DNA of 20,210 bases from a virus. Each line of letters opens with the position of its first letter. The stretch's first letter is position 1. Made by a program: the position numbers and the translations under genes. The stretch is from positions 1-20,210 of IMG/VR virus record IMGVR_UViG_3300035698_002950; one strand, written 5' to 3'. Below, in pieces: positions 1,464 to 19,893 of the stretch. The notes under the pieces were generated by a model. That model was not told the DNA's origin, searched no databases, and was given only the letters and a program-made list of their open reading frames with translations.

Positions 1464-1481
1464 CGATGCTACGGATAGGCG

Positions 1482-4731: not shown

Positions 4732-4732
4732 G

Positions 4733-5137
4733 CTAGGTGAACCTCTGGATGGTGAAGAGCCAAGGGGCTGTGTTCGCCGCGTTTCCGACGCCCGTGGCCA
4801 CGGTGAGGCCCAGCTCTGCGCCAGAGCTGAGCAGCACATGCCCAGTCACCTCCACAGTGCGTGACGCCGCGTCGTGAGTGGCATCCCAGGAGACAACCCG
4901 AAGTACTCCAGGGCATGTCTCTACGGCGACACGCGTGCGCCCGCTGATCGTAGCGAGTGGCGGAGGACGCTGGCTGATCCAGCCGAGGAAGTCCAGCCCC
5001 TTGGATTGGTCGAGGAACCACTCGCCGAGGTGTGTCCTCAATCGGCGCTCGATGCGCTGCACCACGAGGTTATCGCCAGTGACGCGGCGAAGAGGGAAGG
5101 CGATGTCGCCGTTGATGGTGCGCAGGTCGATGGGCAT
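4733..5137 (-). CDS. Baseplate wedge protein, gp25-like (lysozyme-like fold)
   Basis: A 134-residue protein from the ATG at 5137, overlapping the spike gene stop as TGATG and preceded by a GGGGGAG ribosome binding site. The stretch RRLRTHLGEWFLDQSKGLDF is the recognisable core of the T4 gp25 / P2 gpW family (GPW_gp25), which joins sheath to baseplate wedge and helps start sheath polymerisation. The C-terminal half alternates hydrophobic and polar residues as beta strands (RTVEVTGHVLLSSGAELGLTV, shown only in part by the family motif). Its position between spike and gpJ-like gene is the standard order. Despite the fold name, gp25-like wedge proteins are structural and need not be enzymes. Confidence 0.85.
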   Translation of the reverse strand: MPIDLRTINGDIAFPLRRVTGDNLVVQRIERRLRTHLGEWFLDQSKGLDFLGWISQRPPPLATISGRTRVAVETCPGVLRVVSWDATHDAASRTVEVTGHVLLSSGAELGLTVATGVGNAANTAPWLFTIQRFT

Positions 5138-5766: not shown

Positions 5767-6587
5767 GCGCGTCCCTCCGGCTTGCCCAAGATCTGTACGT
5801 AGAACTCTCGGTCCCAGCCTGAGTCGCCCACGAACTCCACATCGCCAGCCACGTAGATCCCACTGAAGCTCTCGCTCTCGAGGACGAATCTCCGCCCGGG
5901 GCGCATGCCAGCGTCCAGCAGTGCGGTGATCTGCACCCCTTTGTCTGTCTGGGTGGGCGCTCCGATCAAGTTGCCAGTCAGCGCCGAGAACTTAGGGGCG
6001 ACCTCTGGCAATGCCGCGCCTCGAGGGGTCATGCACAGAGAGCCGTCTCGCACGAACCACTGAGCTTGGATCGCGCCCACGAGCTGATCAAGGAGGCCTC
6101 GCGCTGTGCCTACATAGGTGATGCCCTGCGGTAGCGTCTGAGCTGTCGGGATGGTGATCACTCCTCGAGCCCACAGCGTCTGCGCCAAGACCTGGCCGAT
6201 CACGACCTCGTACGAGGTGCCGGTCACCACCGAGATGGACACCAGCCGCTGCATCCCAGCGCCACCATCCGCGGCGTGGATCTCCAGGATCCGGTCACCG
6301 CCAGAGCGAGAAACCCTCACCCCATCCTTGACGATGTCCCCCGCGAAGACCTGCCTGGCCGCTGTCGACTCATACCCAGCCAACACTCGGATCGAGGCCT
6401 TGGGGATCTGGGCCAGCGCAATGGTGGTCGGCGAGGGGTTGTACAGCTGCACCACCGCCTCATTGGGTGTCGCGCTTGCCGAGTGCTTCACTCGAAAGTT
6501 CAATCGCAACGTCTCGAAACGCTGCCCTACAGAGCCAGCCACCCCGAGTTCAAGCGCTACCTTCCGGCCAACGAGTCCGGGAATCAT
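5763..6587 (-). CDS. Baseplate hub protein, gp27/gpD-like
   Basis: A 274-residue protein. The ATG at 6587 is chosen because GGAGG lies four bases upstream and the start overlaps the plug gene's stop as ATGA; the frame is open further upstream but without a good start. The N-terminal third reads as hub beta-barrel (LRLNFRVKHSASATPNEAVV, then LYNPSPTTIALAQ and VLAGYES). The C-terminus ends in a short domain with GRRFVLESESFSGIYVAGDVEFVGD. This resembles the compact hub proteins of small contractile tails, related in fold to P2 gpD and T4 gp27. It would form the trimer that closes the tube and carries the spike encoded next. Confidence 0.75.
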   Translation of the reverse strand: MIPGLVGRKVALELGVAGSVGQRFETLRLNFRVKHSASATPNEAVVQLYNPSPTTIALAQIPKASIRVLAGYESTAARQVFAGDIVKDGVRVSRSGGDRILEIHAADGGAGMQRLVSISVVTGTSYEVVIGQVLAQTLWARGVITIPTAQTLPQGITYVGTARGLLDQLVGAIQAQWFVRDGSLCMTPRGAALPEVAPKFSALTGNLIGAPTQTDKGVQITALLDAGMRPGRRFVLESESFSGIYVAGDVEFVGDSGWDREFYVQILGKPEGRA

Positions 6588-6901
6588 GACGCCTCCACCA
6601 CGCGCAGCGTCGACGCGATGAGGGCGGGCAGCTCGGACACTGGCACGTAGATGAGCTCTGGACCGTGGGCCACGTAGAACTCGCCAGCAGGGCGACGGTC
6701 GATCCCATGGCCATGCAGTGGAAACCAGCCCACCGACAGCCGACGGCCAAACACGATCGTAACCTCGTCCGCGTCGTACATGTCGAGGTACCACGCCGCC
6801 TGGCGGTCGTTGTACCGCAGGCGAATCACCACCTCAACATTGTCCAATGTCATCCGATAGCGGTGACTTGGCAGGTCCAGAATGGGAAGGCGCACCGCCA
6901 T
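6584..6901 (-). CDS. Baseplate plug protein (Pam3 gp18-like)
   Basis: A 105-residue protein whose ATG shares one base with the upstream TGA. The segment VVIRLRYNDRQAAWYLDMYD fits the small plug domain known from cyanophage Pam3 and related simple myophages, where residues around an aromatic WYLD core pack against the hub. The rest includes TIVFGRRLSVGWF and ends in a short acidic tail. In those phages the plug gene sits between the Dit-like or tail-terminal protein and the hub, exactly as here. No enzyme motif or membrane segment is seen. The family assignment comes from motif recollection and position. Confidence 0.68.
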   Translation of the reverse strand: MAVRLPILDLPSHRYRMTLDNVEVVIRLRYNDRQAAWYLDMYDADEVTIVFGRRLSVGWFPLHGHGIDRRPAGEFYVAHGPELIYVPVSELPALIASTLRVVEAS

Positions 6902-7455
6902 CAGGTGGCCTCCTCAGCTGCGCCAAAGAAGAAGTCGCCGATCGCCGCTGCCGCAGACGTCTTGCCAGTGGTGGTGGGCACCGTGGGCGCCTGCGTGCCC
7001 GCGTCGGCCTCGTCCGGCATCCCGGAGCCAGCCTTGGCGGATGGCACCCGAGCCGGGATCACTACGGCCACTGGTGTCGCGAATGCGATCTGATCGAAGG
7101 ACAGGTCGTATCGGCGCCCCATCATGACTGTCTGGCTTGTGGGGTAGCCCGTCAGCAAGCAGTTCAGGATCGTCCCGTCTCGCACTGTGTCGACTGCGAT
7201 CAGCCTGCCTACGGCGGTCGACAAGAACGCGCGCGCCTCCTCGACCGCTTGAGGGCGCGGCACCGTCAGCTGCACCGGAGTGAACAGGGCGCCCACGATG
7301 GTGAAGCGCAGGGGCTCCTCTTGCGCGTGGTCGGAGACGGGCGACCCCACCTCCACAGGATGGGATGTCACGCGGATCCGGGAATCGTAGCGGATCTCCT
7401 GATAGCCGTCGATCTTCAACACAAGGCCATCGTCGCGGGTGAGTAGGGCGCTCAT
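6901..7455 (-). CDS. Dit-like distal tail / baseplate ring protein
   Basis: A 184-residue protein whose ATG at 7455 overlaps the tape-measure stop (ATGA). Features of the Dit-like N-terminal domain of phage tail proteins are PVSDHAQEEPLRFTIVGALF near residues 40-58 and the segment RAFLSTAVGRLIAVDT. A middle stretch reads GRRYDLSFDQIAFATP. These proteins form the first ring after the tail tube and seed the baseplate. The C-terminal ~50 residues are Ala/Thr/Pro-rich, of low complexity, and probably flexible. Its place directly after the tape measure is the expected position for a distal-tail protein. Confidence 0.75.
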   Translation of the reverse strand: MSALLTRDDGLVLKIDGYQEIRYDSRIRVTSHPVEVGSPVSDHAQEEPLRFTIVGALFTPVQLTVPRPQAVEEARAFLSTAVGRLIAVDTVRDGTILNCLLTGYPTSQTVMMGRRYDLSFDQIAFATPVAVVIPARVPSAKAGSGMPDEADAGTQAPTVPTTTGKTSAAAAIGDFFFGAAEEAT

Positions 7456-9143
7456 CGGACACCGCCACGAGCAGGCGCTGCAGCTTGGCGGTTCTGGCTT
7501 GCAACGTAGGCCTCAAGCTCTTGAGCTCGCATGCCTGTGGCGTTGACGTTCGTGACCTGACTGCTTGTGCTGCTGTTGTTCACCGTGGAGCCACCGCCAC
7601 CAGCTGACAGGCGATCGGCTGCCAAGTCCGGGGGAGACAGGCGCACAGACGTAGAGCTGACGGGCGCCTCGCTAAGGCCTTCGAGACCGCCTGCCAGCCC
7701 ACCACTCACATACTCGCCAAGGCCAAGGGCGCCACGCAAGACCTTGTAGCCGAGGTTGCCAACGGCCTCGACGGCGCCCTTGATGCCCTTCCAGATCCCC
7801 AGGAGTGTTTTGCTGTCGTCGATGATGTCGTATAGGACCGACCCGGCGCCGACGAAGGCGTCCCTCAGGCCCTGGAGCGCAGCAGGCCCGACCACTCCAG
7901 CGAGCTTGAAGAGCGCGCGAAACACGCGCAACCCGTTCTCGAACTGGCGAGCCAGCGAGCCCATCACCGAATCCTGCTCCTTGAAGCGATCGATGAAGCG
8001 ACCAAGCAGGGAGTCGCCGCCCTGCAGCGCGGTGTAGATGTCCTGCAAGACGAAGAACCAAAACCCGAAGGTGGCAGCCACCGCAGCCACCGCAACGGCC
8101 ACCCAGCCAAGGGATACGCCAGCCGCCGCGGCCGCTATGGAGCTTGCAACCCAGAGGTTCCGCAGCGACATCACTAGTGGGATGATCTTGCCCAGGGCCA
8201 GGACCACCGCGACGGCAGCCCCACCACCCAACAGCCCCTCGTAGAGGCCCTCATATCCACTCGTGCGCCTGATCAGCAGGTCGAGCCTCTCGAAGGCCTC
8301 ACGCAACGCATCCACAGGGCCCTTGAGCCGCTCTACCCACGACTGCATGCCCGAGCGCATCAGCTCTGCGTTGGCCATGCCCCAGTCCCGAATGCCATTC
8401 ACGACGTCCTGCACAACCGGAGCGAGCGCCACCCCGAGCGTGTTGCGGAGCCCTTGGCCCATCTGCATCAGCTGACGCCAGCTGCGGCTCAACGACGAGC
8501 TCGCGGCCACGGCGTCGTCACTCATGACGACACCCATGCGCTCAGCTTCGTCCCCCATGCGCTCCATGCCCGCAGACCCGAGCTGGAGCATGGGCAGCAG
8601 CTTGTTGCCTACGTCGTCGCCCAAGATGCGGACCGCGGCGGTGAGCGCCTTGTTCGGGTCGGTCGCGGCGGCGATCTTGTCCGCGAACAGGTCGAGCAGC
8701 TCTGCGGGCTTCTTCCCCCGGAGTTCGTCAACCTTGACCCCGACGAGCCCGAAGTCGTCGATGAACGACTGCATGCCGCCCTTCGCATCCTCGGCCCGGT
8801 CGGCCAGGGTGCCCAGCACGTCAGCTACATCACCGCCATCTGCGCCGAAGGCCTCGAAGGTCGCCACCATGCGCTGGTATTGGCGCTGCGTCACGGCGAG
8901 GGCGCGGCTTCGGCGCTCGATGGACTCGGCGTCCCGACCTGTGGCGAGGGCCTGCGCGGTGAGCGCAGCGGTGCCAGCCGTGAGGCCAGCTACGAACTTC
9001 GCACCTAGCTTCACAGCGCCTTCAAAGGACTTCTTCACTTCGTTCGTCTGCTTTTGCACCTTCTCGAGGCCGGCCAGCGTCTTGTCGACGTCCTTCACAC
9101 CGAAGGCGACCAAGAGCTTGCGGATGACCTTTTCGCTAGCCAT
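7452..9143 (-). CDS. Tail tape measure protein
   Basis: A 563-residue protein. The ATG at 9143 is chosen because AGGAAGG lies just upstream; the frame extends 13 codons further without a better start. Residues 1-60 are Lys/Glu/Val-rich coiled coil. Then come long Ala/Leu helices including LGTLADRAEDAKGGMQ and ADKIAAATDPNKAL, as in tape-measure N-terminal regions. Around residues 320-400 are hydrophobic segments (AAVAVVLALGKIIPLVMSL and a Val/Ala-rich pair) that could insert in the host membrane during DNA delivery. The C-terminus is Gly/Ser/Asn-rich. It overlaps the chaperone ORF by eight bases. Tail length scales with this protein, and 563 residues implies a fairly short tail (inference). 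Confidence 0.92.
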   Translation of the reverse strand: MASEKVIRKLLVAFGVKDVDKTLAGLEKVQKQTNEVKKSFEGAVKLGAKFVAGLTAGTAALTAQALATGRDAESIERRSRALAVTQRQYQRMVATFEAFGADGGDVADVLGTLADRAEDAKGGMQSFIDDFGLVGVKVDELRGKKPAELLDLFADKIAAATDPNKALTAAVRILGDDVGNKLLPMLQLGSAGMERMGDEAERMGVVMSDDAVAASSSLSRSWRQLMQMGQGLRNTLGVALAPVVQDVVNGIRDWGMANAELMRSGMQSWVERLKGPVDALREAFERLDLLIRRTSGYEGLYEGLLGGGAAVAVVLALGKIIPLVMSLRNLWVASSIAAAAAGVSLGWVAVAVAAVAATFGFWFFVLQDIYTALQGGDSLLGRFIDRFKEQDSVMGSLARQFENGLRVFRALFKLAGVVGPAALQGLRDAFVGAGSVLYDIIDDSKTLLGIWKGIKGAVEAVGNLGYKVLRGALGLGEYVSGGLAGGLEGLSEAPVSSTSVRLSPPDLAADRLSAGGGGSTVNNSSTSSQVTNVNATGMRAQELEAYVASQNRQAAAPARGGVR

Positions 9144-9354
9144 GTTTCGCCTTCCTCTCTTGCTCTCGACGCTGGATTGCATCGGATGCCTGTCGCGCGT
9201 CTAGGTCGATCCAGGTGTCGTAGATGTCGCGGAATGCCCAGTGTCGGCGCACCTCGGTGGGGCTGACCTTGTAGGCCACCGCCACGCGGTACAGGTGCGG
9301 GTTGTGCATCCGCTTTGCCGCCCGCCACATGGGCATGGCGGCTGCTTCGCTCAC
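9136..9354 (-). CDS. Tail assembly chaperone, second ORF (also reachable by -1 frameshift)
   Basis: A 72-residue ORF that can start at a GTG overlapping the first chaperone's TGA (GTGA), with GGAG five bases before it. It reads MWRAAKRMHNPHLYRVAVAY, then KVSPTEVRRHWAFRDIYDTW, and ends in a charged Arg/Glu/Lys tail. The frame is open far upstream, beyond the slippery heptamer at 9405-9411. A -1 slip there would join it to the first 120 residues of the upstream ORF, giving about 209 residues. That layout, just before the tape measure, matches gpG/gpGT-type tail chaperones. Independent GTG initiation and frameshifting may both operate. Confidence 0.72.
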   Translation of the reverse strand: MSEAAAMPMWRAAKRMHNPHLYRVAVAYKVSPTEVRRHWAFRDIYDTWIDLDARQASDAIQRREQERKAKHG

Positions 9355-9764
9355 ACCTTCTCCGCCATCTTCTTTGCTTCCTCCAAGGAGGTAATGGGCA
9401 GCGGCAAAAAAGCGTTGTGCAGCACGACCTCTTTGAGGGCCATCCAGCACTCGGTGTAGTTGCCTTTGTAGGCATCGCCGAAGACCACCGGAGAGCCCAG
9501 GGGCTGGCCGTCTCGCGTGGTGTGGAGCAAGATCCGGGCTGCCAGCTTGGGCAAGTCGATCTTGTCCAGCGCAGCGACCACCTGGAGCGCGTCGATGGTC
9601 TCGCCGTTGCCGCCCATCAAGCCAGCCAAAGCAGGAAGCCCCAACTTGGTCAGCTCGCAGGACAGCGCGAATCCCTCGCCGCCAGAGTGGAAGGACACCT
9701 CGTATAGGTGCGCAGCGCCCTTGGCGTCGGAGAGGCTGAACGTCGCGTCGTGGGCCGAATCCAT
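9351..9764 (-). CDS. Tail assembly chaperone, first ORF
   Basis: A 137-residue protein whose ATG overlaps the tube gene stop (TGATG). It is soluble, with FSLSDAKGAAHLYEV near the N-terminus, a Leu/Ala-rich middle with GLMGGNGETIDALQVVAALD, and FGDAYKGNYTECWMALKEVV near residues 95-113. Lying between tube and tape measure, it fits the short chaperone that coats the tape measure before tube polymerisation. A heptamer T TTT TTG spans the codons for Phe119 and Leu120, 17 codons before the stop, so some ribosomes may shift into the next ORF. The family is inferred from position, size and the frameshift layout more than from a named motif. Confidence 0.75.
   Translation of the reverse strand: MDSAHDATFSLSDAKGAAHLYEVSFHSGGEGFALSCELTKLGLPALAGLMGGNGETIDALQVVAALDKIDLPKLAARILLHTTRDGQPLGSPVVFGDAYKGNYTECWMALKEVVLHNAFLPLPITSLEEAKKMAEKV
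9405..9411 (-). other. Predicted -1 ribosomal frameshift site (T TTT TTG)
   Basis: On the minus strand the first chaperone ORF reads GCT TTT TTG with the TTT codon at 9410-9408. The heptamer T TTT TTG allows both tRNAs to re-pair one base back, and the -1 frame is exactly that of the second chaperone ORF, open to 9136. About a dozen bases downstream lies CCTCCTTGGAGG, a small self-complementary element that could form a weak hairpin. This layout is established for lambda gpG/gpGT-type tail chaperones. Efficiency here is unknown. Confidence 0.6.
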
Positions 9765-10216
9765 CAGACCACCCCGACGGGAACGATCGCCGTGCCGCGG
9801 TCGAACGTCGGCGAGGGCAGGCCGATCCGAACGGTGATCTCACCACTCGTCTTCTTCGCCATCATGGGCAGGTCGGTGAGGAACACCCCGGCCACGCAGT
9901 AGCAGAGGTCGCCTGTCGCCAAGTTGGTGTAGCTGAAGACGAGCGGAGGCACGCGGCCGACTGTCTTGAGCGCCAGCTTCTGGGCCGTGATGTACTTGGC
10001 GATGATCGAGTAAGCGAAGCTGTTCTGCTTGATGACGATCTCGGCGATGAAGTTGTCGTCGTTGCTCGAGTCGAACGTGGGCACGCCATCTGCCGACACA
10101 GACATAGTCACCATGTCGCTGTTGGGCTGGATGTCGATGGCGTCGGACTCGCCGAACTCTTTGACCTCGATTGCGCCGAGGATCAGATGGCAGCCGGCAA
10201 GAGAGTGGTTTCGCAT
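9764..10216 (-). CDS. Tail tube protein, DUF3277-like
   Basis: A 150-residue protein starting at the ATG at 10216, four bases after the sheath stop, with GGAGG nine bases upstream. It opens with SLAGCHLILGAIEVKEFGES, then VTMSVSADGVPTFDSSNDD, and KQNSFAYSIIAKYITAQ near the middle. These are typical of DUF3277-type tube proteins paired with DUF3383-type sheaths. It would form the inner tube through which DNA passes. The C-terminal half contains FSYTNLATGDLCYCVAGVF and a beta-rich end. Position directly after the sheath and before the chaperones is standard. Confidence 0.85.
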   Translation of the reverse strand: MRNHSLAGCHLILGAIEVKEFGESDAIDIQPNSDMVTMSVSADGVPTFDSSNDDNFIAEIVIKQNSFAYSIIAKYITAQKLALKTVGRVPPLVFSYTNLATGDLCYCVAGVFLTDLPMMAKKTSGEITVRIGLPSPTFDRGTAIVPVGVV

Positions 10217-10220
10217 GGGA

Positions 10221-11285
10221 TCAGGCCTCCGCTGCGATCGGGTCGCGGCTCAAGTAGACGTCGAGGTCGAAGAAGATGGCGTCGGTCTGCGTCTGGGCGC
10301 GAACCGTCATCCGAAGCCTTTTGGCTGCAGTGTCGGCAATGGTGATCTCCTCACCATCGGCGGAGTAGTCATCGAAGTGACCGACCTGCAGACCTTGAGC
10401 ACCAAGTCGCCGCAAGGGCGCCAAGCAAAGCTCTTGGCCAACCGGGTTGACTGGCACCTTTAAGCCGAGCGCTGAGCGCTGCACCTTCACGTCCGCCAGC
10501 GCCTCGCGGGCGCGAGATCGGAGCCAGTCCGCGGTAGTCAGCTCGTAGACGGGCCGCCCCGTGAGGGTCACGCCGTCCATGACGAAGAACGTCGAGGAGC
10601 CGTACGCGAGGCCCACGTTGCAGTTGTTGCCAACAACAAAGTTGCGCTGCGTTTCCGTTAGGGCGGGAGGGGTCACACCCTTGACGGTCAGCGCCGCTGG
10701 GGCGCTGCGTTCATCAGGGTTCCATGCCAGGTAGGCCGCAGCGTAGCCCTCTGCGTGCCCAGCGCCATCTACCGAGTTGTAGAGCACGGTCGTGCGCTCG
10801 TTGGTGGTGATGGCCGCGAACGATGCGGGCTGGCTTGCCGTCAGCCAGTCTGCGAGGCTGCTCTGCACAAATAGGCGCCGAAGTCCTTCTGCTTCGATCG
10901 CGTTGCTGAGCGGAGCGATGTCAGACGCTGTTCGGGACAGCATGCACACGCCGTACACGGCGGGGTCAGCGGCCACGCAGGCGGCGTAGCCCGTGGCCCA
11001 GGTCTCCGATGCCGCGGTGTCGACCTGTCCAAGCTTCACGCGCTTGAGGCGTGGCGCCTGGCTGAACATCGTCGTGAGGATGTTCTTGGTACCAGTCGTG
11101 ATCTTGCCAGCCACCACAGCGGCTGCAGCCTCGGTGGGATTGTTGATCGTGAGGATGCGGGCGCCCAGGTCGTCCGTGTCGACGTCCACCAAAAGTAGGA
11201 TGTCACTGAAGCTCACTGCTGGAGTGGGCTGCGCCTGAAGGAAGATTTCTATTGTGATGGATCGGCTGGCGTGGTCTGCGCTCAT
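10221..11285 (-). CDS. Tail sheath protein, DUF3383-like
   Basis: A 354-residue protein starting at the ATG at 11285, overlapping the neck gene stop by four bases. It shows the DUF3383 pattern. The N-terminal part is a compact beta-rich domain (SITIEIFLQAQPTPAVSFSD), a central domain has TTVLYNSVDGAGHAEGYAAA and AYLAWNPDERS, and the C-terminal part has VYELTTADWLRSRAREAL and LKVPVNPVGQ. It is shorter than T4 gp18, as expected for minimal contractile tails without extra surface domains. It forms the contractile outer layer. A Mu-type FI sheath is the main alternative family, but the role is secure from neighbours and motifs. Confidence 0.87.
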   Translation of the reverse strand: MSADHASRSITIEIFLQAQPTPAVSFSDILLLVDVDTDDLGARILTINNPTEAAAAVVAGKITTGTKNILTTMFSQAPRLKRVKLGQVDTAASETWATGYAACVAADPAVYGVCMLSRTASDIAPLSNAIEAEGLRRLFVQSSLADWLTASQPASFAAITTNERTTVLYNSVDGAGHAEGYAAAYLAWNPDERSAPAALTVKGVTPPALTETQRNFVVGNNCNVGLAYGSSTFFVMDGVTLTGRPVYELTTADWLRSRAREALADVKVQRSALGLKVPVNPVGQELCLAPLRRLGAQGLQVGHFDDYSADGEEITIADTAAKRLRMTVRAQTQTDAIFFDLDVYLSRDPIAAEA

Positions 11286-11797
11286 GCGATGCTCTCGTCG
11301 TAGGGTGTGGACTGGACGCCGACCTCCTGGTCAACCTCCACAGATTCCGCGGGCACGAACGCCTCTGCAGTGGTGCGGCGTCGGTAGGAGATGTCGAGCT
11401 CTTGTAGGCATCGGGGCTCGGTCGCCGTGTCGATGAAGCGAGACACGTCCGTCAAGCCGCCATTTAGCTCGACCGACAACCCAGCCGCGAAGAGGTACTC
11501 GGACGCCAGCGGGCCAGCGAGGCGGATCATGGCCTCGCCGAGCTCATTGATGGCCACCTCGCCGTAGGCGTTGAGGCTCACAGTGCCGCGATGTTCGCCG
11601 TCGACAGCCACCATGTCGGAGTCGAGGAAGAAGACACCAGCGCCGCCGCTTGGCACGCCGTGGAGGGTCACTTTGTAGGTGACGTAGGGCAAGGCAGGGC
11701 GGGCCTGGTCTTGGTCGGCAGCAATGACTGTGGTCACGCCAGCGGCGGTTAGCCACGTGTAGAGCACAGTCTCGATGTCGCGGCGGGTGCTGATCAC
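11282..11797 (-). CDS. Neck / tail terminator protein (LIC_12616-like)
   Basis: A 171-residue protein. It begins MISTRRDIETVLYTWLTAAG, then RPALPYVTYKVTLHGVPSGG, followed by VSLNAYGEVAINELGEAMIR, and near the end CLQELDISYRRRTTAE. This pattern of a short N-terminal helix, an RP-x-LPYVTYK strand and an NxYG motif fits the LIC_12616 / neck-terminator family that caps the tail tube and contacts the head-completion proteins. Position between the head-closure protein and the sheath agrees. The last ~25 residues are acidic and probably flexible. Confidence 0.75.
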   Translation of the reverse strand: MISTRRDIETVLYTWLTAAGVTTVIAADQDQARPALPYVTYKVTLHGVPSGGAGVFFLDSDMVAVDGEHRGTVSLNAYGEVAINELGEAMIRLAGPLASEYLFAAGLSVELNGGLTDVSRFIDTATEPRCLQELDISYRRRTTAEAFVPAESVEVDQEVGVQSTPYDESIA

Positions 11798-12138
11798 TCT
11801 TGCACCCGCAGCACGAGCGCTCGGGTGTGCTCGATGAGGGGGTGGCTGTCGTCCACATGCACGACCTCGTACCAGAGGCCCTTGATCTGCACATGGTCTG
11901 CAGCCGTGCCCAGGTGCTGATCGACCACGCGCAACGCGTCCTCAGCCTCGAGGTACAGCTTGCGGCCATCCTGGTGCCGCTGGCCCTCCTCAAGGGACTC
12001 CCGGTCGCGGCCTTTCATTGGCTGCACGGAGGCGACCACTGTGGAGTCGATGGACGCACCATCGACGTAGCGGCCCAACACATAGGACCCCACGGCAAAG
12101 CGTCGACGAGTGTACTCTTTGGCTCCAAGAAGACTCAT
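11794..12138 (-). CDS. Head closure / head-tail connector protein
   Basis: A 114-residue protein with ATGA overlap at its start. The arrangement RRRFAVGSYVLGRYVDG, SVQPMKGRDRESLEEGQR, ADHVQIKGLWYEVVHVDD, ending ALVLRVQE is typical of small beta-barrel head-closure (stopper) proteins, which sit below the adaptor and keep DNA in the capsid until ejection. In comparable phages this gene lies between the DUF4054/adaptor group and the tail terminator. The exact family name is uncertain. It is compact, with no membrane segment or Cys-rich motif. Confidence 0.7.
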   Translation of the reverse strand: MSLLGAKEYTRRRFAVGSYVLGRYVDGASIDSTVVASVQPMKGRDRESLEEGQRHQDGRKLYLEAEDALRVVDQHLGTAADHVQIKGLWYEVVHVDDSHPLIEHTRALVLRVQE

Positions 12139-12569
12139 CGCACCACCTCATAGTCGATGGACTGCCGCAGTCTTCCAGTGTCGATGAGGGGATTCTTGCT
12201 GCCCTTCTTCTTGATCGTAGAGGGTGCGTTCGGTGGGTCTTTCAGTGTCCGGATCTTGCGCTGAACGTCAGCCACTGCAACCACACCCAGGCGGTTCAGG
12301 GCCGCGTCTGGGCTCTCGCCCTTAATCACCGCATCAACCGCCTTCTCAAGCATCGCTGCGTACTTTGGTGCGCCCTCGTCTGCGGTGCTCCGCAGGAATG
12401 AGCGCTCGGGCACGTGACCGTCTTCCGTGCCGAATTCGTTAGCTGCGGCGTACGTTGCCAGCTCAGAGCCTTGCTCTGCACGAACGCCCACCATCACAGT
12501 GGGAACGCCCAGGGCACGCAGACTCTTCGCCAGGTCACCAGCGCCCATGTCTTCGTCGATTACCCTCAC
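12135..12569 (-). CDS. Head-tail connector, HK97 gp10-like / virion morphogenesis protein
   Basis: A 144-residue protein. The GTG at 12569 is chosen because it overlaps the DUF4054-like gene's TGA as GTGA, the same junction type used elsewhere here. It contains VMVGVRAEQGSELATYAAAN then EFGTEDGHVPERSFLRST, the strongest motif, and ends PLIDTGRLRQSIDYEVVR. NEFGT-x-PxRSFLR and a C-terminal DTGRLxxSIxxxV are widely seen in gp10-like and Mu gpG-like proteins that complete the head-tail joint. Length is typical. The central part is Lys/Ala-rich and helical. Confidence 0.78.
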   Translation of the reverse strand: MRVIDEDMGAGDLAKSLRALGVPTVMVGVRAEQGSELATYAAANEFGTEDGHVPERSFLRSTADEGAPKYAAMLEKAVDAVIKGESPDAALNRLGVVAVADVQRKIRTLKDPPNAPSTIKKKGSKNPLIDTGRLRQSIDYEVVR

Positions 12570-12925
12570 GCGCTCACCCACCGTGGAGTGATCGCCGCCA
12601 GCCTCGACCGACGGCCAAGGTAGCGCTGACCGTAGGTGGTCGTGCGAAGGAAGTCGTCCGCGTCGCCGCGGGCGGTGTTGCCATACGTCCGCGTCAGGTC
12701 GCCGTCGCGCTGGGACAGGAGTTGCCCAGGCTGAGCGACGGCGCCCGCCACAGACGTGCTCTGTACATAGTGGGCGGCAAACCACACCATGCCGTCATCA
12801 AACGCCGAGCCCCACGCGGCTGCGCTGTGCTCGGCGATCGCCAGCCCCAACTCGACCTCCACCACAGCATCCGCCACACTCGAATGAGCGGGCACGATTT
12901 CGCGGTAGCGGTCGAGCGTAGACAT
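12566..12925 (-). CDS. DUF4054-like head-tail connector / adaptor
   Basis: A 119-residue protein from the ATG at 12925, overlapping the previous stop as TGATG; the frame runs open far upstream within the capsid gene, but those residues are antigenic noise of another frame rather than real coding. It begins MSTLDRYREIVPAHSS, then VELGLAIAEHSAAAWGSAFD, MVWFAAHYVQSTS and LRTTTYGQRYLGRRSR. An N-terminal helical bundle with W-x-x-A and AAHYV, followed by a Gly/Asp/Thr-rich loop and TTYGxxYLxRR, is characteristic of DUF4054 proteins that follow the capsid gene in this type of phage. Confidence 0.83.
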   Translation of the reverse strand: MSTLDRYREIVPAHSSVADAVVEVELGLAIAEHSAAAWGSAFDDGMVWFAAHYVQSTSVAGAVAQPGQLLSQRDGDLTRTYGNTARGDADDFLRTTTYGQRYLGRRSRLAAITPRWVSA

Positions 12926-13155
12926 CAGATGCCGTATTCGACGATGGAGCCGTTCAAGATCAGCCCGGCCACGGTGTCCCCGTATTGCTTGCTGTCCTTG
13001 ATGGCCTTCCAATCCTTCGCATCGACAGACACCTCGGCTGGCGCCTCGCTGGGGAGGCCCTGGGAGTCGCCCAGGATGACCTTGCCCAACATGAGCCGGG
13101 AGCGAGTGGTGTTGCGAATCTGCACAGTCGCGGCCTCTGCCGCAGCGCCCGCCAT
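12925..13155 (-). CDS. Small conserved-type phage protein of unknown function
   Basis: A 76-residue protein starting at the ATG at 13155, overlapping the capsid stop as TGATG; a GTG one codon earlier is also possible. It begins MAGAAAEAATVQIRNTTRS, continues MLGKVILGDSQGLPSEAPAE, then VDAKDWKAIKDSKQYGD, and ends in a hydrophobic strand. Short proteins of this type often follow the major capsid gene in contractile-tailed phages, but I cannot name a function. A role in head completion or decoration is possible. No membrane segment is seen. Confidence 0.72.
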   Translation of the reverse strand: MAGAAAEAATVQIRNTTRSRLMLGKVILGDSQGLPSEAPAEVSVDAKDWKAIKDSKQYGDTVAGLILNGSIVEYGI

Positions 13156-14273
13156 CACGACTGCGCCGTAGCGAACTGGATCGCGTTGGCGCCCACGTCG
13201 CGCATGACCACGCCACCGATTGCGGCGAAGTACACGACTTGGTTGGTGAAGGGCCCGTTCTGCCAGATCGGCATCGCGGTCGGGGGCTGGACCATGACGA
13301 ACGCCGTCTTCTGGATCGAGCTGTCGTAGGCGAACATCGCGTCTTGGCTCGCGCCAGCGGGGCCAACACCCATGAACTCGTCGATGCCGACGACCTCCTT
13401 GATGTGCTGCTGCCCCTTGAGGAAGAACTCACCGATCGTGATGTCCGATGACGCGCCATGACGCGTCTGGAACAGGTAGTTCCGCTGACGCAGGCTCATG
13501 GCCATCCGATCCGGCTTGAGGGCGCCACCACTGGTCACTTCCGCGCGGTTCGCGAAGCGGTTGAGATCCGCTACAACAGCGTCAGCCGTGGCGGTCCCGT
13601 CGTAGTTGACGCTGGCCACGCCCTTCGCGAGCGAGGGGTAGTCGAGCAGGCCGTACATCTTCGACGCCTTGTTGCCGTTGAACGCGATCTGGTTGATCCG
13701 CGCCTCAATGGCTGCCACGGCGTCGCGGCTGTCCTCGGCGAACTGGTTGCGGCCCTCGAAGCTGTCGGAGGCGAGCTCGAAGAAGTTCGTCTCCACGGCT
13801 GCGGCGATGTAGATCACCGGGTAGCGGTCCTCCACCTTCGAGCTGGAGATCACCGGGACCTGACCGCCCCGCATGACCTCGGCCTGCCCAGCAGTGAGAC
13901 TGCGACGGACGAGGTGGCTCTTGGCACCCAAGGGCACCCGGGAGTCCATTGGCAGGATCATCTCGTAGTTGTTCGGCCGGCGAGGCTCCGTCAGGATCTC
14001 CTCGTAGGCAAACTCGAAGTCCCGGCTAAACGCGCCGGCGGCGTCGTTGCGCATGCCCCTGTCGGCCACCATTCGCTGGATGGAAGCTGCGTCTTCACGC
14101 TTCCGCCAGCTGTCGATCCAGTCAGTGCGCGATGCGACCAACTCTCCCGACACTGCATCAAAGCGCGTGCCGTTGCCACGAGAGAGCGCAAGGCCCTCAC
14201 TCACACGCGACTGGATGGCGCCTCCGTTCTGGAGAGCCTCACCGGTGCGTGCATCAATCACGAGTCCGTTCAT
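13155..14273 (-). CDS. Major capsid protein (DUF2184/DUF6260-like, HK97-fold expected)
   Basis: A 372-residue protein. The ATG at 14273 is chosen because a strong TGAGGAG lies six bases upstream; the open frame continues 50 codons further but overlaps the preceding gene. Residues about 50-80 form an alpha-helical N-arm (WRKREDAASIQRMVADRG). The central part contains FFELASDSFEGRNQFAEDSR and IEARINQIAFNGNKASKMYG, followed by GLLDYPSLAKG. A C-terminal domain has MAMSLRQRNYLF, QHIKEVVGIDEFMGVGP and IGGVVMRDVGANAI. These are typical of major capsid proteins that accompany DUF2213 proteases and DUF1073 portals. Whether DUF2184 or DUF6260 is the better family cannot be settled by reading. The strong separate ribosome site fits the large copy number needed. 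Confidence 0.9.
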   Translation of the reverse strand: MNGLVIDARTGEALQNGGAIQSRVSEGLALSRGNGTRFDAVSGELVASRTDWIDSWRKREDAASIQRMVADRGMRNDAAGAFSRDFEFAYEEILTEPRRPNNYEMILPMDSRVPLGAKSHLVRRSLTAGQAEVMRGGQVPVISSSKVEDRYPVIYIAAAVETNFFELASDSFEGRNQFAEDSRDAVAAIEARINQIAFNGNKASKMYGLLDYPSLAKGVASVNYDGTATADAVVADLNRFANRAEVTSGGALKPDRMAMSLRQRNYLFQTRHGASSDITIGEFFLKGQQHIKEVVGIDEFMGVGPAGASQDAMFAYDSSIQKTAFVMVQPPTAMPIWQNGPFTNQVVYFAAIGGVVMRDVGANAIQFATAQS

Positions 14274-14283
14274 GGTTCGCTCC

Positions 14284-15435
14284 TCAGATGCGGATGCGGA
14301 CAGCTGCGACGCCGTCCTGTGCGTTGTTGGTGCCCTCGGTCTCCCACTGGGCCTTGGTGCGTGCCAGGGCCACGCGGGTCGAACTGGGCGAGCCGTAGAG
14401 CTGGCCCTTGGTCGCGCCCGCAAGCTCGACGTAGACTAGGCCGCTTGCGGTCACTGCGCCGTCATGGGCGACCCAGACAGGAGCGTCAGTGTGCGCAAGC
14501 ACGCCAGCGTTCCCGGCGAACTGGCCGACACCACCGATGGTGGCCGGGGCTTCGTCACGAGCGTGCGCGGCAATGCCGGCGAACGCACGGTTCAGCGAGG
14601 TCAGGATGCTGGGGCCCGTGGTGCTCGCCAGCGAGATCGCCGGAGCGCTGGCGCCGCCGGAGATGTGGTTCACCTCGATGTCGAACTCGAGCCCCGTGAT
14701 CTCCGCAGTGGACGTCAGGGTCGTAGCGCCACCAACCACGTCGACGGTGTTCGCGGGCAGCTGCGCATTCAGCGCAGTCGCCAAGGCCGTCAGGGTGGCG
14801 GCCTGGCTGGTGGCCGAGGTGACTTCGGTACTGGCCAGCAGCACGCGTTCTGCGCCGCGCACCTCGTAGATGGCTGCGCCAATGATCGCGGATGCGACGT
14901 AGGCGATGGTCGCGGTCTTGACCTGGGCGGTCAACTGCGCCGAGCTCGCCAGTGCACATAGCTCTTCAGCTTGGCCAGCGTCGTAGCCACGCGACAGGAC
15001 CGCACACCCGAAGGGGACGGGGTCTGCCGAGAGTGCGGATTGGGTGACAGCGAGCGTCACCTGCGCGTCCACGCCGGTGATGAGCACGTCGTCGCCGGGG
15101 TAGAGGGCGGTGAAGGTCACCACCGCAGACGCGGTGGTCGCCACGCCCTTGCCACGTGCGATGGGGTCGGCGTTGATGGCCGCGGCGATGCCGGTCGCGA
15201 TGTTCGTGGTGTTGTTGTCGGCCGCGGTGAAGCTGACCCCGCGACCCGCCACAGTGACGCCGTAAACGCGCGACAGGGTGCCAGTGTCGACCGTGAGGGT
15301 CTGAACCTTCACGCGCTGAGGGTCGGAGTTCAGGTAGCTCTTCTGACGGTTGCTGCCGTCCGAGCGTACGATCATTCCGGGCAGACCCTGACGGGCCGAG
15401 CGACGGACCTCGTGGGCCTGGAAGCTGGTATTCAT
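14284..15435 (-). CDS. Head decoration / structural cement-like protein with two repeats
   Basis: A 383-residue protein whose ATG overlaps the protease stop (ATGA). Its N-terminus (SARQGLPGMIVRSDGSNRQK) and the VPFGCAVLSRGYDAGQAEEL segment near residues 139-158 resemble gp24-type structural cement proteins, which stabilise the capsid. It is unusual in holding two Ala/Thr-rich modules, at about residues 45-132 and 175-257. Each pairs a strand region with a helix ending in INAD or LNAQ. A similar module appears in the gene at 719-1459. The gene lies between protease/scaffold and major capsid, the normal cement position. Repeats could mean surface-exposed decoration domains (inference). Confidence 0.7.
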   Translation of the reverse strand: MNTSFQAHEVRRSARQGLPGMIVRSDGSNRQKSYLNSDPQRVKVQTLTVDTGTLSRVYGVTVAGRGVSFTAADNNTTNIATGIAAAINADPIARGKGVATTASAVVTFTALYPGDDVLITGVDAQVTLAVTQSALSADPVPFGCAVLSRGYDAGQAEELCALASSAQLTAQVKTATIAYVASAIIGAAIYEVRGAERVLLASTEVTSATSQAATLTALATALNAQLPANTVDVVGGATTLTSTAEITGLEFDIEVNHISGGASAPAISLASTTGPSILTSLNRAFAGIAAHARDEAPATIGGVGQFAGNAGVLAHTDAPVWVAHDGAVTASGLVYVELAGATKGQLYGSPSSTRVALARTKAQWETEGTNNAQDGVAAVRIRI

Positions 15436-16043
15436 GCAGCACCTCCAGCGGCCTTGAAGGCCTCATCTTTTCGTTTGAATTGAGCGGCGGTTGGCGAGAG
15501 TTTGGGCTCTTTGCCCTGGGTATCGTCGACGTCGGTACGGGTCGCGGCGTCGCCCTCGCCCCATGCGCTGCGGCCAGCCTCCCGACCGTCCGCGCGCCTC
15601 GCCATGTCGGCGCGGATCACAGCCAGCAGGCCAGGCACCATGGACACGTCGGCGGTGTCGACTCGCGTCTTGGCAATGGCCAGCTCGAGGGCAGCGAGGT
15701 CGAGGCCGTCAGTCTTGACGTCCACAGTCTTCGCAAGCGTCTGGAGCTCGGTGAGTGCCTCGGAGTCCTTGAGGTCCTTAGCGGCCTTGTCAGCCCTCTC
15801 GGCTGCGGCCTTCAGGTCGGCGTTCTCCTTCGCCATCTTCTCCATGTCGGCCTTCATGGTCGACACCGCCTTATCGGCGTCCTTCTTCTCTTTCTCAAGC
15901 GTGCCAACATACTCGTCGGTGTACTTGCCAGCGTCAGCCTTCAAGGCCTTCACAGCTTGGAAGCCAGCCTCAAGGGCTGCGTCTTCGTTGTCGGTGCGCT
16001 CAACGCCGGCCAGGGCCAGCAGACGCACGAGATTTGGTTTCAT
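15432..16043 (-). CDS. Nested scaffolding protein (internal in-frame start)
   Basis: Within the protease gene, ATG codons occur back to back at 16046 and 16043, and GAGG lies five bases before the second. Starting there gives a 203-residue product that lacks the protease domain and begins MKPNLVRLLALAGVERTDNE. It consists mainly of a Lys/Glu/Ala coiled coil (for example EKEKKDADKAVSTMKADMEK) and a basic C-terminal tail that could bind capsid protein. This matches the established C/Nu3 plan of lambda, where scaffold is translated from inside the protease gene. The internal start is a prediction; abundance relative to the full-length protein cannot be judged from sequence. Confidence 0.6.
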   Translation of the reverse strand: MKPNLVRLLALAGVERTDNEDAALEAGFQAVKALKADAGKYTDEYVGTLEKEKKDADKAVSTMKADMEKMAKENADLKAAAERADKAAKDLKDSEALTELQTLAKTVDVKTDGLDLAALELAIAKTRVDTADVSMVPGLLAVIRADMARRADGREAGRSAWGEGDAATRTDVDDTQGKEPKLSPTAAQFKRKDEAFKAAGGAA

Positions 16044-16652
16044 CATGTCCTCTCGTTGTGGTTGCTTTGCCTGCCCGGCGGGGGGCATGACCTGCCAGTC
16101 GGTGACGACAGCCTCTTCCGCATCGACGCGGATTGCTGCCTCGGGGCCAGCACGTCCCACCTCAACAATCGCGAGGTGGTTCGACTCACAGCCGACCTGC
16201 GCAGCGTCGTAGCGCCCATACATTGGGTGCACGCCCGGTCGAGGGTCGAGCAGCACGTCGTAGCCGACAGACAGCTCGCGCTTGCCCGCGAGCACGGCCC
16301 GGATCGCGTCCTCGCGACGCACCGCCATCGAGACGCGAACGAAGCCACCCTGGGACGTCTCTTCGACTGACGCCTCGCCATCGACGTCGCCCACGCCGTA
16401 CTTGTCGACGTTCTCGCTGTCGACGAAAACAGGAGGGTGGTCGAGCGTCACAGATGAGCGGGGAAGCGTACGAGCCGTGTCCTCCACCGCCTTGCGCGTG
16501 ACAAGCTCTCGGCGGATCGTGCCGTCCGCGTTCCGGTATTCAAGGATGCCTTCGCGCCGCGCATAGCCCTCGACGAGCAAGGCGCCATCAGACTTACGGC
16601 GCCAATTGCGCAGTAGGGGGCCGCCGGAATCGTAGCGTCGAACGAGGTTCAT
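15432..16652 (-). CDS. Prohead protease, DUF2213-like, with C-terminal scaffold region
   Basis: A 406-residue protein from the ATG at 16652; the frame is open 16 codons upstream but only to a TTG. The protease half (about 1-195) holds SSVTLDHPP with probable catalytic His72, KRELSVGYDVL with probable nucleophile Ser128, and CESNHLAIVEVGRAG with His159. ELSxGY and NHLAxVxxGRAG are signatures of DUF2213 and related herpes-like prohead proteases. The C-terminal half is Lys/Glu/Ala-rich coiled coil and resembles a scaffold. The protease would cleave the scaffold and possibly the capsid during maturation. Ribosome binding at 16652 is weak. Element B (16671-16685) lies 18 bases before the start, so transcription of the whole series may be controlled there. 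Confidence 0.87.
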   Translation of the reverse strand: MNLVRRYDSGGPLLRNWRRKSDGALLVEGYARREGILEYRNADGTIRRELVTRKAVEDTARTLPRSSVTLDHPPVFVDSENVDKYGVGDVDGEASVEETSQGGFVRVSMAVRREDAIRAVLAGKRELSVGYDVLLDPRPGVHPMYGRYDAAQVGCESNHLAIVEVGRAGPEAAIRVDAEEAVVTDWQVMPPAGQAKQPQREDMMKPNLVRLLALAGVERTDNEDAALEAGFQAVKALKADAGKYTDEYVGTLEKEKKDADKAVSTMKADMEKMAKENADLKAAAERADKAAKDLKDSEALTELQTLAKTVDVKTDGLDLAALELAIAKTRVDTADVSMVPGLLAVIRADMARRADGREAGRSAWGEGDAATRTDVDDTQGKEPKLSPTAAQFKRKDEAFKAAGGAA

Positions 16653-16670
16653 AGTCCATAGGGTAGCGCG

Positions 16671-16685
16671 TCTATGAATCGTAGA
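16671..16685. promoter_or_regulatory. Operator-like palindrome in front of the minus-strand series (B)
   Basis: TCTATGAATCGTAGA is a 15-bp near-palindrome with one mismatched pair. Read towards the protease gene, the minus strand is ACGATTCATAGACGCG (16682-16667), identical at 15 of 16 bases to element C in front of the portal gene. It lies 18 bases upstream of the protease ATG and near a possible RHH promoter, so one protein bound here could govern both directions. Binding by the RHH protein is inferred from position. Confidence 0.55.
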
Positions 16686-16710
16686 TATGTGCAGTCGCAA
16701 AATTCCGGGC

Positions 16711-16716
16711 TACAAT
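16711..16716 (+). promoter_or_regulatory. Candidate -10 box for the RHH gene
   Basis: TACAAT matches the sigma70 -10 consensus at five of six bases, 46 bases before the ATG at 16763. The hexamer 17 bases upstream (TGTGCA, 16688-16693) is only a weak -35, so an activator or alternative promoter may be needed. Element B ends three bases before that -35 position, which would suit autoregulation. Confidence 0.35.
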
Positions 16717-16762
16717 TGGACACAGTCCCCCTCATTGCAACCATTCATCCTGGGTCGAGCAC

Positions 16763-16930
16763 ATGGCCAAAGAACCGACATCACCCGTTCACACCCGGCT
16801 GCCCAAACGGCTCATTCAGCGCGTCGACGCCGTTGCCAAGCGTGGCACCCGTACACGCTCGATGCAGCTCACTCGCTGGATTCTCGAAGGACTAGAGCGC
16901 GACGAGCGCGACCCGACGCGGTACGATTGA
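16763..16930 (+). CDS. Ribbon-helix-helix transcriptional regulator (55 aa)
   Basis: A 55-residue ORF that short-ORF cutoffs would miss. It reads MAKEPTSPVHTRLPKRLIQR, then VDAVAKRGTRTRSMQLTRWI, then LEGLERDERDPTRYD. A short strand (VHTRLP) followed by a helix (KRLIQRVDAVAKR), a turn, and a second helix (RSMQLTRWILEGLERD) is the Arc/CopG ribbon-helix-helix plan, in which paired strands of a dimer read the major groove. Its size and basic N-terminus fit that class. It lies in the divergent interval between the protease and portal genes, and palindromic elements of similar sequence flank it at 16671-16685 and 16940-16955. It probably regulates both structural transcripts and perhaps the distant 1447-1497 interval; that regulon is inference. 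Confidence 0.78.
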   Translation: MAKEPTSPVHTRLPKRLIQRVDAVAKRGTRTRSMQLTRWILEGLERDERDPTRYD

Positions 16931-16932
16931 CA
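16927..16932 (+). promoter_or_regulatory. Candidate -35 box (TTGACA) before the portal gene
   Basis: A perfect TTGACA overlaps the stop codon of the RHH gene. No good -10 hexamer lies at the usual spacing: TAGACG at 16948-16953, 15 bases downstream, is the nearest and is poor. If used, the promoter would be overlapped by element C and give a leader of only a few bases, so repression by an operator-bound protein would be direct. The match may also be chance. Confidence 0.3.
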
Positions 16933-16955
16933 CGAATACACGATTCGTAGACGCG
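16932..16955. promoter_or_regulatory. Operator-like element in front of the portal gene (C)
   Basis: ACGATTCGTAGACGCG at 16940-16955 repeats element B with one change, in inverted orientation relative to it. An inverted pair ACGAAT (16932-16937) and ATTCGT (16943-16948) overlaps its left half, and another ACGATT lies at 16923-16928, 17 bases upstream of the core, so several half-sites cluster here. The portal ATG follows eight bases later, with GAGG at 16955-16958 as ribosome binding site. Confidence 0.5.
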
Positions 16956-16963
16956 AGGCTCGC

Positions 16964-19174
16964 ATGGGTATGTTCGACTGGTTCACCCCCGCCACTCCAC
17001 CCCAACTGCTGGGGCCCCAACTCCCCGACGATGCAGCCACCAACTCCACCCTCAGGCAGCGGCTCGACTCGGTCTTCAACCAGCTCACGGGCATGGGCGG
17101 TGCTGGCGACAAGGGTGCGGCCAACGATGTCGACATATTTCGCGTACCCCTCGACCACGTCCGCCTGACCAGTCTGTGGGAGTACAACGGCATCGCGAAC
17201 CGCATCGTCTCCCTGCTGCCTGACGAGGCCGCCCGAAAGGGCTGGTCGGTGCCTGAACTCGCCGCCGAGGAGCAGCAACTCTCCATCCACCACCAGGTGC
17301 ACGAGGCGATGACTTGGGCGCGCCTGTACGGTGGAGCCATTGCTGTGCTCGTCACCGAGGATGACGTGCCTGGGGCATTCCATGGTGACCCCACACAGTG
17401 GCTCGCCCAGCCCCTTGACCTCGACCGCGTTGGGAAGGTCCATGCGCTGCAGGTCTTCGACGCCCTCGAGGCTCAGCCTGGCCCACCCCACAGGGACCTG
17501 ATGAGCCCCTTCTACCGGCAGCCCGCCTACTGGGACGTCGTCATCGGGGCGCGGCCCCTACGCGTGCACGCCTCCCGGGTCCTGTACTTCCGGGGCGCCA
17601 AGCGCGCGCCTCACAAGCGCGAGAGCTACCGGCTCATGCCCGACAACTCCGTGCTGCAGACCGTGTGGGATGAGATCGGCCGCCTGTGCTCCACCATGCA
17701 GTCAGGCGCTGTCCTCGCAGCCGAGATCCGTGAGTCCGTGCTCAAGGTCGACGGCCTGGCCAACGTGGCCACTGGCGACCAGCAGTCTGCCCTCACCGAG
17801 CGCGTTCGCCTCATGGCCCGCGCTAAAGGCATGCTGGGGATGATCCTGCTTGGGCCTGGTGACGAGTACAGCAACCGAAGCAACCCGCCCACCGGATTCA
17901 AAGAGCTCTCTGGCGAGGCGCGCACCATGCTCGCCGGCGTCGTGGGCTGGCCACAGATCGTGCTGTATGGCGAGGCGCCCGGGGGCATGTCCACGGATGG
18001 GGCCAGCGGCTGGCAGCTGATGGACCGGATCACCAGCACCTACCAGGAGAGACATCGCCCACTCCTCGAGCGCGTCTACGGTGCCTGCTACGCCGCCCAA
18101 GACGGCAGCACCAAGGGGCAGCGGCCCGACGACGACTACCTCACCTTCCTCTCCCTCGACGAGCCCACCGACAAGGAGAAGGCCGAGAGCCGGAAGATTG
18201 TCGCCGAGAGCGACGTCCTGTACATCTCCGCGGGCGTGATCGACCCCTCCGAGGTGCGGGAGAGCCGATTCGGTGAGGAGGGGTGGCAGGTCGACCTTCG
18301 GACGCTCGATGCCTTCGAGGACGAGCCCGGCGCAGACTTCGCGCCAGTGCCCGACGTGCCCGACGTGCTCACCCCCGGAGCGCCCGACGTCCAGGCCACC
18401 GCGCTCAACGGCTCGCAGATCACCAGCGCGCTCAACATCCTGTCACTGGTCGCCACCCGGCAGCTCCCCCGCGAGACCGGCGTGTCGAGCCTCGCGCGCT
18501 TCTTCACGCTCAGCGTCCAGGAGGCCGAAGGCATCATGGGCCCCGTGGGCGCCACCTTCTTCGTCGAGCCCACCACCGCAGACCCCTCCCAGGTCGCGCA
18601 GGTCACCGACGCCCTGCATCGCCTTGACGCGGCTCTCGTCGAGCGCTGCCGTCGCATCGACGAGGCCATCGCTCAGCACGCCGGCACCGTGATCCTCATT
18701 CCTGCGCCCACGCCCGCCATCCCAGACAGCGCGCCACTCATCACGCGCGAAGAGCATCCCCACATCACCGTCCTGTACCTGGGCAAGACCCAGCCAAAGG
18801 ACCACGCCGAACTCATTGAGATCCTCACCGACGTGATGCGTGGGCGCGACCCAGCCCAAGACCTCCGTGAGGGGCGCCTGACCACCTTCCCCGACGGCCA
18901 CAACGGCACGCCGCTTGTGTTCGAGTACGACCACTCGTGGGCGCTCAACGACCTGCATGAGAGTCTGTTACGGCGCCTGGCTCACCTCATCAGCGCCAAG
19001 CAGTACCCGAGCTACCGGCCACACCTCACGCTCGGCTACCTCCCACAGTTGACACCTGACGAACGCGCTGAGCTGGTCGCCACCGAGGTCGAGGGGCCCA
19101 TCGTGCCGCTCTCCGAGGTCGTGTTGCTCGCAGGTGGGCAAGAGATCGCTCGCGTACCTTGGGGTGGCGCGTGA
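16964..19174 (+). CDS. Portal protein fused to a C-terminal 2H phosphoesterase (Acb1-like) domain
   Basis: A 736-residue protein from the ATG at 16964 with GAGG five bases upstream. Residues about 1-440 read as a DUF1073 (Phage_portal_3) portal: LWEYNGIANRIVSLLPDEAA, EAMTWARLYGGAIAVLVTED, MLGMILLGPGDEYSN and GVVGWPQIVLYGEAPGGMST. The portal ring is the DNA channel at one capsid vertex. Residues about 465-530 hold a segment often seen at the end of such portals (LNGSQITSALNILSLVATRQ and SVQEAEGIMG). From about 575 to the end is a 2H phosphoesterase-like domain with two H-x-T motifs, His600-Ile-Thr602 (HPHITVLYLG) and His687-Leu-Thr689 (YRPHLTLGYL), 87 residues apart. T4 Acb1, which destroys CBASS cyclic nucleotides, uses the same catalytic pair. 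Anti-CBASS activity is an inference; RNA 2',3'-cyclic phosphodiesterase activity is the main alternative. Confidence 0.85.
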   Translation: MGMFDWFTPATPPQLLGPQLPDDAATNSTLRQRLDSVFNQLTGMGGAGDKGAANDVDIFRVPLDHVRLTSLWEYNGIANRIVSLLPDEAARKGWSVPELAAEEQQLSIHHQVHEAMTWARLYGGAIAVLVTEDDVPGAFHGDPTQWLAQPLDLDRVGKVHALQVFDALEAQPGPPHRDLMSPFYRQPAYWDVVIGARPLRVHASRVLYFRGAKRAPHKRESYRLMPDNSVLQTVWDEIGRLCSTMQSGAVLAAEIRESVLKVDGLANVATGDQQSALTERVRLMARAKGMLGMILLGPGDEYSNRSNPPTGFKELSGEARTMLAGVVGWPQIVLYGEAPGGMSTDGASGWQLMDRITSTYQERHRPLLERVYGACYAAQDGSTKGQRPDDDYLTFLSLDEPTDKEKAESRKIVAESDVLYISAGVIDPSEVRESRFGEEGWQVDLRTLDAFEDEPGADFAPVPDVPDVLTPGAPDVQATALNGSQITSALNILSLVATRQLPRETGVSSLARFFTLSVQEAEGIMGPVGATFFVEPTTADPSQVAQVTDALHRLDAALVERCRRIDEAIAQHAGTVILIPAPTPAIPDSAPLITREEHPHITVLYLGKTQPKDHAELIEILTDVMRGRDPAQDLREGRLTTFPDGHNGTPLVFEYDHSWALNDLHESLLRRLAHLISAKQYPSYRPHLTLGYLPQLTPDERAELVATEVEGPIVPLSEVVLLAGGQEIARVPWGGA

Positions 19175-19893
19175 CCCGCCCCGTCTTCCCCGTCCCCGTC
19201 GAGCGGCGCTACCGGACCTTCCTGCATACCCGGTGGCGCAGCTGGCACGCCCAGCTCACCAAGCAGCTCCCGCCCAGCCGCACCGATGCCCGCGCTGTCG
19301 AGGGGGCACGCCAGGCCTTCACCCTCCCAGCTCCGCCGCGGCTGCGAGACCTGAGCCCCCTTGCCGTGCAGGTCGATGTGTGGGCCACCGACGCCATCGT
19401 GCGCGAGGTCCAGCGCCTGGCCACCATCGACGTGCGGGGGACCGCCAAGCGCAGTCTGAAGGACGCGCACACCGCCTGGGTGCGTACCAACATCGAGCTG
19501 ATCACCAACGCCGAGGCCGACCTGCTTGACCGCCTGGCGCCCATGGTTGAGGAGGCCGTGGCCAAAGGGCAGACCGCCACCGAGCTGGCCAAGCTCATCT
19601 CCGACCGGCTCTCTGTCGCACTGTCTCGGGCCAACACCATTGCGCGCAGCGAGATCGGGACGCTCAACAGCCAGATCAGCGCGGCCCGCATGCAGGGGGC
19701 AGGCTTCACGCACTACGAGTGGAGCACCTCCGACGACGAGCGCGTCCGGCCCTCCCATGAGGCCCTCGACGGCACCGTCCGAGCCTGGAGCGACCCGCAC
19801 CCGCGCGAGGGCCATCCCGGCCATGCCGTGAACTGCCGGTGCGTAGCCCTGCCTGTGGACGCGCCCGAGGGCCCGCCCGAGGAGGCGCCGTGA
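19171..19893 (+). CDS. MuF-like minor head protein
   Basis: A 240-residue protein. The GTG at 19171 is chosen because it overlaps the portal TGA as GTGA; an in-frame TTG four codons earlier is less likely. The C-terminal half (about 105-228) carries the Phage_Mu_F pattern: NTIARSEIGTLNSQISAARM, THYEWSTSDDERVRPSHEAL and finally HPREGHPGHAVNCRC, with the family's conserved His and Cys residues. MuF proteins enter the head with the portal and help early capsid assembly or DNA ejection. No toxin domain follows, since the protein ends soon after the MuF motif. The gene directly follows the portal, as is usual, and is coupled to the next small gene. Confidence 0.9.
   Translation: MTRPVFPVPVERRYRTFLHTRWRSWHAQLTKQLPPSRTDARAVEGARQAFTLPAPPRLRDLSPLAVQVDVWATDAIVREVQRLATIDVRGTAKRSLKDAHTAWVRTNIELITNAEADLLDRLAPMVEEAVAKGQTATELAKLISDRLSVALSRANTIARSEIGTLNSQISAARMQGAGFTHYEWSTSDDERVRPSHEALDGTVRAWSDPHPREGHPGHAVNCRCVALPVDAPEGPPEEAP

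Follow-up and report, generated by a model that had tools for sequence, protein, structure and literature searches.

Ribbon-helix-helix regulators and the late genes of viruses

The P22 repressor Arc is a protein of 53 amino acids that controls the ant region and not the head or packaging operons. SvtR is a 6.6-kDa ribbon-helix-helix (RHH) protein of an archaeal virus that represses itself; it binds its own promoter and shows its highest affinity at the promoter of a virion-structural gene (PMC5569661). It is thought to delay structural gene expression (PMC5569661). RelB, another RHH protein, recognizes 6-bp hexads that are paired in 12-bp palindromic half-sites (PMC2812701). The literature searched, which included few subscription journals, held no description of RHH control of tailed-phage head or packaging operons and contained archaeal virus cases only.

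The virus record analyzed here is a 20,210-base fragment, and the whole of this stretch is called the window. Its layout was confirmed to be the one claimed by an earlier sequence-only reading: an RHH-like gene lies between two matching sites, named B and C, and the head/tail and portal/terminase units point outward from it. A third site, named A, was found at the start of another leftward gene. The arrangement is like SvtR in that a tiny viral RHH protein is paired with a small number of sites in the genome that encodes it. However, for SvtR the site of top affinity is some 80 nt away from a single tail-fibre gene promoter, whereas the window belongs to a tailed phage, and its three sites, to which binding is predicted, are located directly where whole late units start.

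The 55-aa product of the gene between B and C is also similar to Arc-like phage repressors (PHROG 3431 and 228), and the profile similarity runs along nearly its whole length at weak significance (E 0.007). The operator sequence of Arc differs from the window sites. As in RelB/relO, 6-bp hexads are found in a palindromic arrangement (PMC2812701). RelB is an antitoxin with a toxin partner and uses two abutting palindromes, whereas each window site has one palindrome and no toxin gene is located beside the RHH gene, the neighbours of which are the head protease and the portal. We propose, at a probability of roughly 0.6, that the sites are palindromic operators at late promoters and that the 55-aa protein is the repressor that binds them, a reading drawn from sequence analysis.

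Three palindromic sites at the starts of transcription units

The leftward unit begins with the head maturation protease (15432..16652, minus strand; PHROG 530, E 1.3e-50; PF09979). The rest of this unit (1860..15435, minus strand) encodes major capsid, tail terminator, sheath, tape measure, baseplate hub, baseplate wedge/J, and fibre-end proteins, and the conserved protein after the protease (14284-15435, minus strand) had no family match and is kept in relatives. The first gene of the rightward unit encodes the portal (16964..19174, plus strand; PF06381, E 5e-57). The portal C-terminus contained a 2'-5' RNA ligase/phosphoesterase-like domain (PF13563, LigT-like, E 1.6e-11). The portal gene is followed by a Mu F-like minor head protein (19159..19893, plus strand; PF04233, E 7.3e-24) and by the N-terminus of a probable large terminase, which is cut by the contig end (19982..20210, plus strand). 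The terminase assignment came from weak tblastn matches (1e-4 to 3e-4) to regions upstream of the portal in related loci, and this product had no PHROG match.

Site B (16667..16691, minus strand) carries the 16-mer ACGATTCATAGACGCG at 16682-16667, and site C (16931..16955, plus strand) carries the 16-mer ACGATTCGTAGACGCG at 16940-16955. Direct sequence checks agreed with the sequence-only reading on the coordinates and strands of both 16-mers, on their opposite orientation, and on their one-base difference. The distances to the start codons were likewise as described, with 14 nt (16666-16653) between B and the protease ATG (16652-16650) and 8 nt (16956-16963) between C and the portal ATG at 16964. 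The palindromic core said to be common to both sites was recovered by inspection: TCTATGAATCGTAGA in B (16671-16685, plus strand) pairs at 6 of 7 arm positions, and the imperfect palindrome TACACGATTCGTAGA in C (16937-16951) pairs at 5 of 7. The inverted repeat exceeds the earlier 16-mer, and its two 25-nt arms (16667-16691 and 16931-16955) match at 80%. A half-operator, GAATCGTAG, was also located at 16627-16635 within the first protease codons, and site B contains the same 9-mer at a distance of 49 bp.

The window was scanned with the palindromic core TCTAYGAWTCRTAGA, and site A was detected as GCTATGAATCATAGC at 1448-1462. The further copy near a gene start to which the sequence-only reading had pointed as a check was thereby found. 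The full site (1444..1466, minus strand) is a 23-bp near-palindrome with perfect 8-bp arms at 1447-1463; this inner part, TGCTATGAATCATAGCA, is a perfect 17-bp palindrome and the longest perfect odd one in the window. Site A abuts the ATG at 1447 of the leftward gene 719..1447 (minus strand), which is the first gene of a third unit and is possibly structural, with no significant family match. The true start of this gene is uncertain because a second in-frame ATG, at 1459, sits inside the palindrome.

Near site A, a rightward ORF (1551-1868) with a lipoprotein-like start (MRWLVLAVVAVGCG) and no family match lies between the leftward late genes, and its product might act at the host envelope. 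A gapped look-alike of B and C, GCGATTCTGGTAGCGCG at 1481-1497, faces this ORF and may be due to chance.

The motif was well above chance in the window. ACGATTCRTAGACGCG, allowing up to three mismatches, was expected 0.29 times per shuffled window and was observed twice, both times with zero mismatches. The 13-mer CTAYGAWTCRTAG occurred twice in the window and never in 200 simulations. For the palindromic 15-mer TCTAYGAWTCRTAGA with up to two mismatches, three copies were counted in the 20-kb window, whereas 200 order-2 Markov simulations averaged 0.02 copies and never gave more than 1; because the consensus was derived from B and C, A is the sole independent support among the three. In 3.19 Mb of related phage DNA, the same 15-mer was found 0.05 times per 20 kb, and the 1.66 Mb of this DNA with GC of at least 60% contained no match. 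The B/C level of 15/16 identities was reached by 0.2% of random 60-mer pairs from the window. The three sites thus resemble each other, are dyad-symmetric, stand at gene starts, and exceed chance, as in an operator set, and the site module is real and non-random. Since the sites are dyad-symmetric, their binder should be dimeric. A DNA search with the single 16-mer returned eight single-copy matches, which were taken as chance, and none of the eight loci matched any window protein. The DNA search for the B/C pair gave no match.

The symmetry can be read in two further ways. RNA hairpins in the 5' leaders could govern translation, with no role as DNA operators. The RNA hairpin at site A masks the ATG (-15 kcal/mol, z -4.1), but neither B (z -1.5) nor C (z +0.6) forms a convincingly more stable fold than its shuffles, and the common symmetry centres on a 1-nt spacer, so that we consider this reading quite improbable. 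Rfam and tRNA searches gave no matches. In the second reading, the centre YGAWTCR, which is matched by all three sites, would be recognized by the host CcrM/GcrA system (GANTC methylation), which would make the elements promoters under control of the host cell cycle. The window contains 51 GANTC sites, a number not above expectation, and the conserved CTA/TAG flanks are left unexplained; of all the alternatives, we give this one the least credence.

The 55-aa protein between sites B and C

The gene at 16763..16930 (plus strand) encodes a candidate regulator of Arc/RelB-like RHH type. Its profile matches were weak but concordant, comprising the NCBIfam RelB-like (E 0.0022) and HicB-like (E 0.017) families, the Arc-like PHROG 3431 (E 0.007), and the repressor PHROG 4738 (E 0.007). 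RHH or repressor families were the top named matches in three libraries, and all RHH profile matches were weak and fell under the curated cut-offs where such cut-offs exist. A homolog was found on L260, another high-GC viral contig (42%, E 7e-7), and this homolog matched the repressor PHROG 4738 at 5e-5. An AF2 model from a shallow alignment showed a short N-terminus followed by helices at 13-27 and 32-49 and no strand (pLDDT 73); the model is of a monomer, and the RHH strand pairs only in the dimer. PDB sequence and fold searches (Foldseek; shallow alignment) gave no convincing RHH match. Several independent weak profile matches and the repressor-like homolog favour the RHH identity proposed by the sequence-only reading. 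The protein is probably an RHH regulator, as judged from these matches.

The L260 homolog (4866-5162) has TCGTATACGA upstream, which contains the same TCGTA/TACGA half-sites in a different arrangement and may have arisen by chance.

Autoregulation is usual for such regulators. The 55-aa gene has no full operator directly in front, where only ACCATTCAT at 16740 was detected, and site B, about 78 bp upstream of the gene start, could serve as the autoregulation site. The lack of a clear site directly in front would also suit a different dimeric phage regulator, such as a CI/Cro-like repressor or a late activator, encoded outside the fragment. Helix-turn-helix regulators also typically use palindromes, and the window is merely a 20-kb fragment. 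However, the RHH gene is placed exactly between B and C. An activator would be the less fitting version, because only 0-18 bp separate the sites from the start codons, hardly enough for a promoter in between. We judge such a different regulator unlikely, and the possibility that other DNA-binding proteins are encoded outside the 20-kb fragment was counted against the RHH repressor reading.

Promoter-like features and the divergent late units

Each of the three sites precedes the leading gene of a transcription unit by 0-18 bp. Their gene-strand sequences are CTATGATTCATAG (A), CTACGATTCATAG (B), and ACACGATTCGTAG (C), and GATTC is common to all of them on this strand. At the same position, they contain the -10-like hexamers TATGAT (A), TACGAT (B), and CACGAT (C), and TATGAT at A follows TGC, an extended -10 form. 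No sigma-70 promoter and no -35/-10 pair were found around B and C, and no -35/-10 pair was seen by inspection at A. We infer that TAYGAT/CACGAT may serve as the -10 element. Transcripts would then start about 7 nt downstream, so that those from B and C would have short leaders and the one from A would be almost leaderless, and a binder sitting on the dyad would cover the -10.

These features would also fit -10-type late promoters that are read by a sigma factor or polymerase of the phage or by a host polymerase that the phage has appropriated; the RHH gene would then be an unrelated neighbour. All three sites share their orientation to the gene and their near-start position, no -35 was seen, and the 16 nt common to B and C extend beyond the palindrome to where transcription probably starts (AGACGCG). 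Dyad symmetry is needless for a promoter, yet A is a perfect 17-bp palindrome. Furthermore, the GACGCG extension is missing at A, and no sigma or polymerase gene was recognized within the 20 kb. Pure promoter elements are therefore also an unlikely explanation in our view, comparable to a regulator encoded elsewhere.

The arrangement of the late genes was compared to related loci. Portal and protease were co-directional in all 160 related loci that allowed both genes to be located, several of them near-duplicates, and were divergent in the window alone. The break between the divergent units holds the RHH gene and sites B and C. The closest phages, L124 (portal 43%, capsid 44%), L110, and L123, were all co-directional, and in L184 (38%) only the portal was visible. 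The window has the gene order portal, Mu F, and probable terminase (16964-20210), unlike the relatives, in which the order is terminase, portal, Mu F, and protease. Single-query protein searches with portal or capsid in viral and genome collections gave no close relatives, alignment-based scans gave portal relatives of up to 43%, and a search of 369 genomes of one class gave distant matches only. No relative with the divergent portal, RHH gene, and protease arrangement was found. The operator motif was not detected in the scanned parts of the nearest relatives (portal about 40% identical), an absence that is no test of operator conservation because these relatives are without the divergent break.

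An arrangement unique among the compared loci, with an RHH gene flanked by a 25-nt inverted repeat of 80%, might instead mark a rearrangement junction of the late operon, at which B and C are recombination repeats bounding an invertible segment or a cassette. However, site A, the third copy of the palindrome, is roughly 15 kb distant, stands at one gene start, and has no partner flanking it; both B and C have internal symmetry, and no recombinase was recognized in the fragment. This origin of the repeats appears highly improbable.

Under the RHH repressor reading, A, B, and C would be operators composed of the hexads CTAYGA/TCRTAG around a central W, and they would overlap the -10/start regions of three late transcription units. 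The 55-aa protein would bind them as dimers or paired dimers and block RNA polymerase. The head/tail genes would be repressed via B, the portal/terminase genes via C, and the third leftward unit via A, until late infection. Both the identity of the binder as the RHH protein and the repressive effect are inferred. We extend this reading tentatively, with the odds slightly against it, to a usually single packaging-head operon that has been split divergently and an Arc-like repressor that jointly times the virion genes with three operators.

In most descriptions, phage late genes are turned on by activators, antiterminators, or phage-directed polymerases. If the proposed control is true, the window would hold an uncommon minimal timing circuit, in which one repressor-operator set acts over head, packaging, and a further unit, and the whole module would take about 300 bp. 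The rearrangement would then show how a conserved operon can be split, with a regulator positioned at the break.
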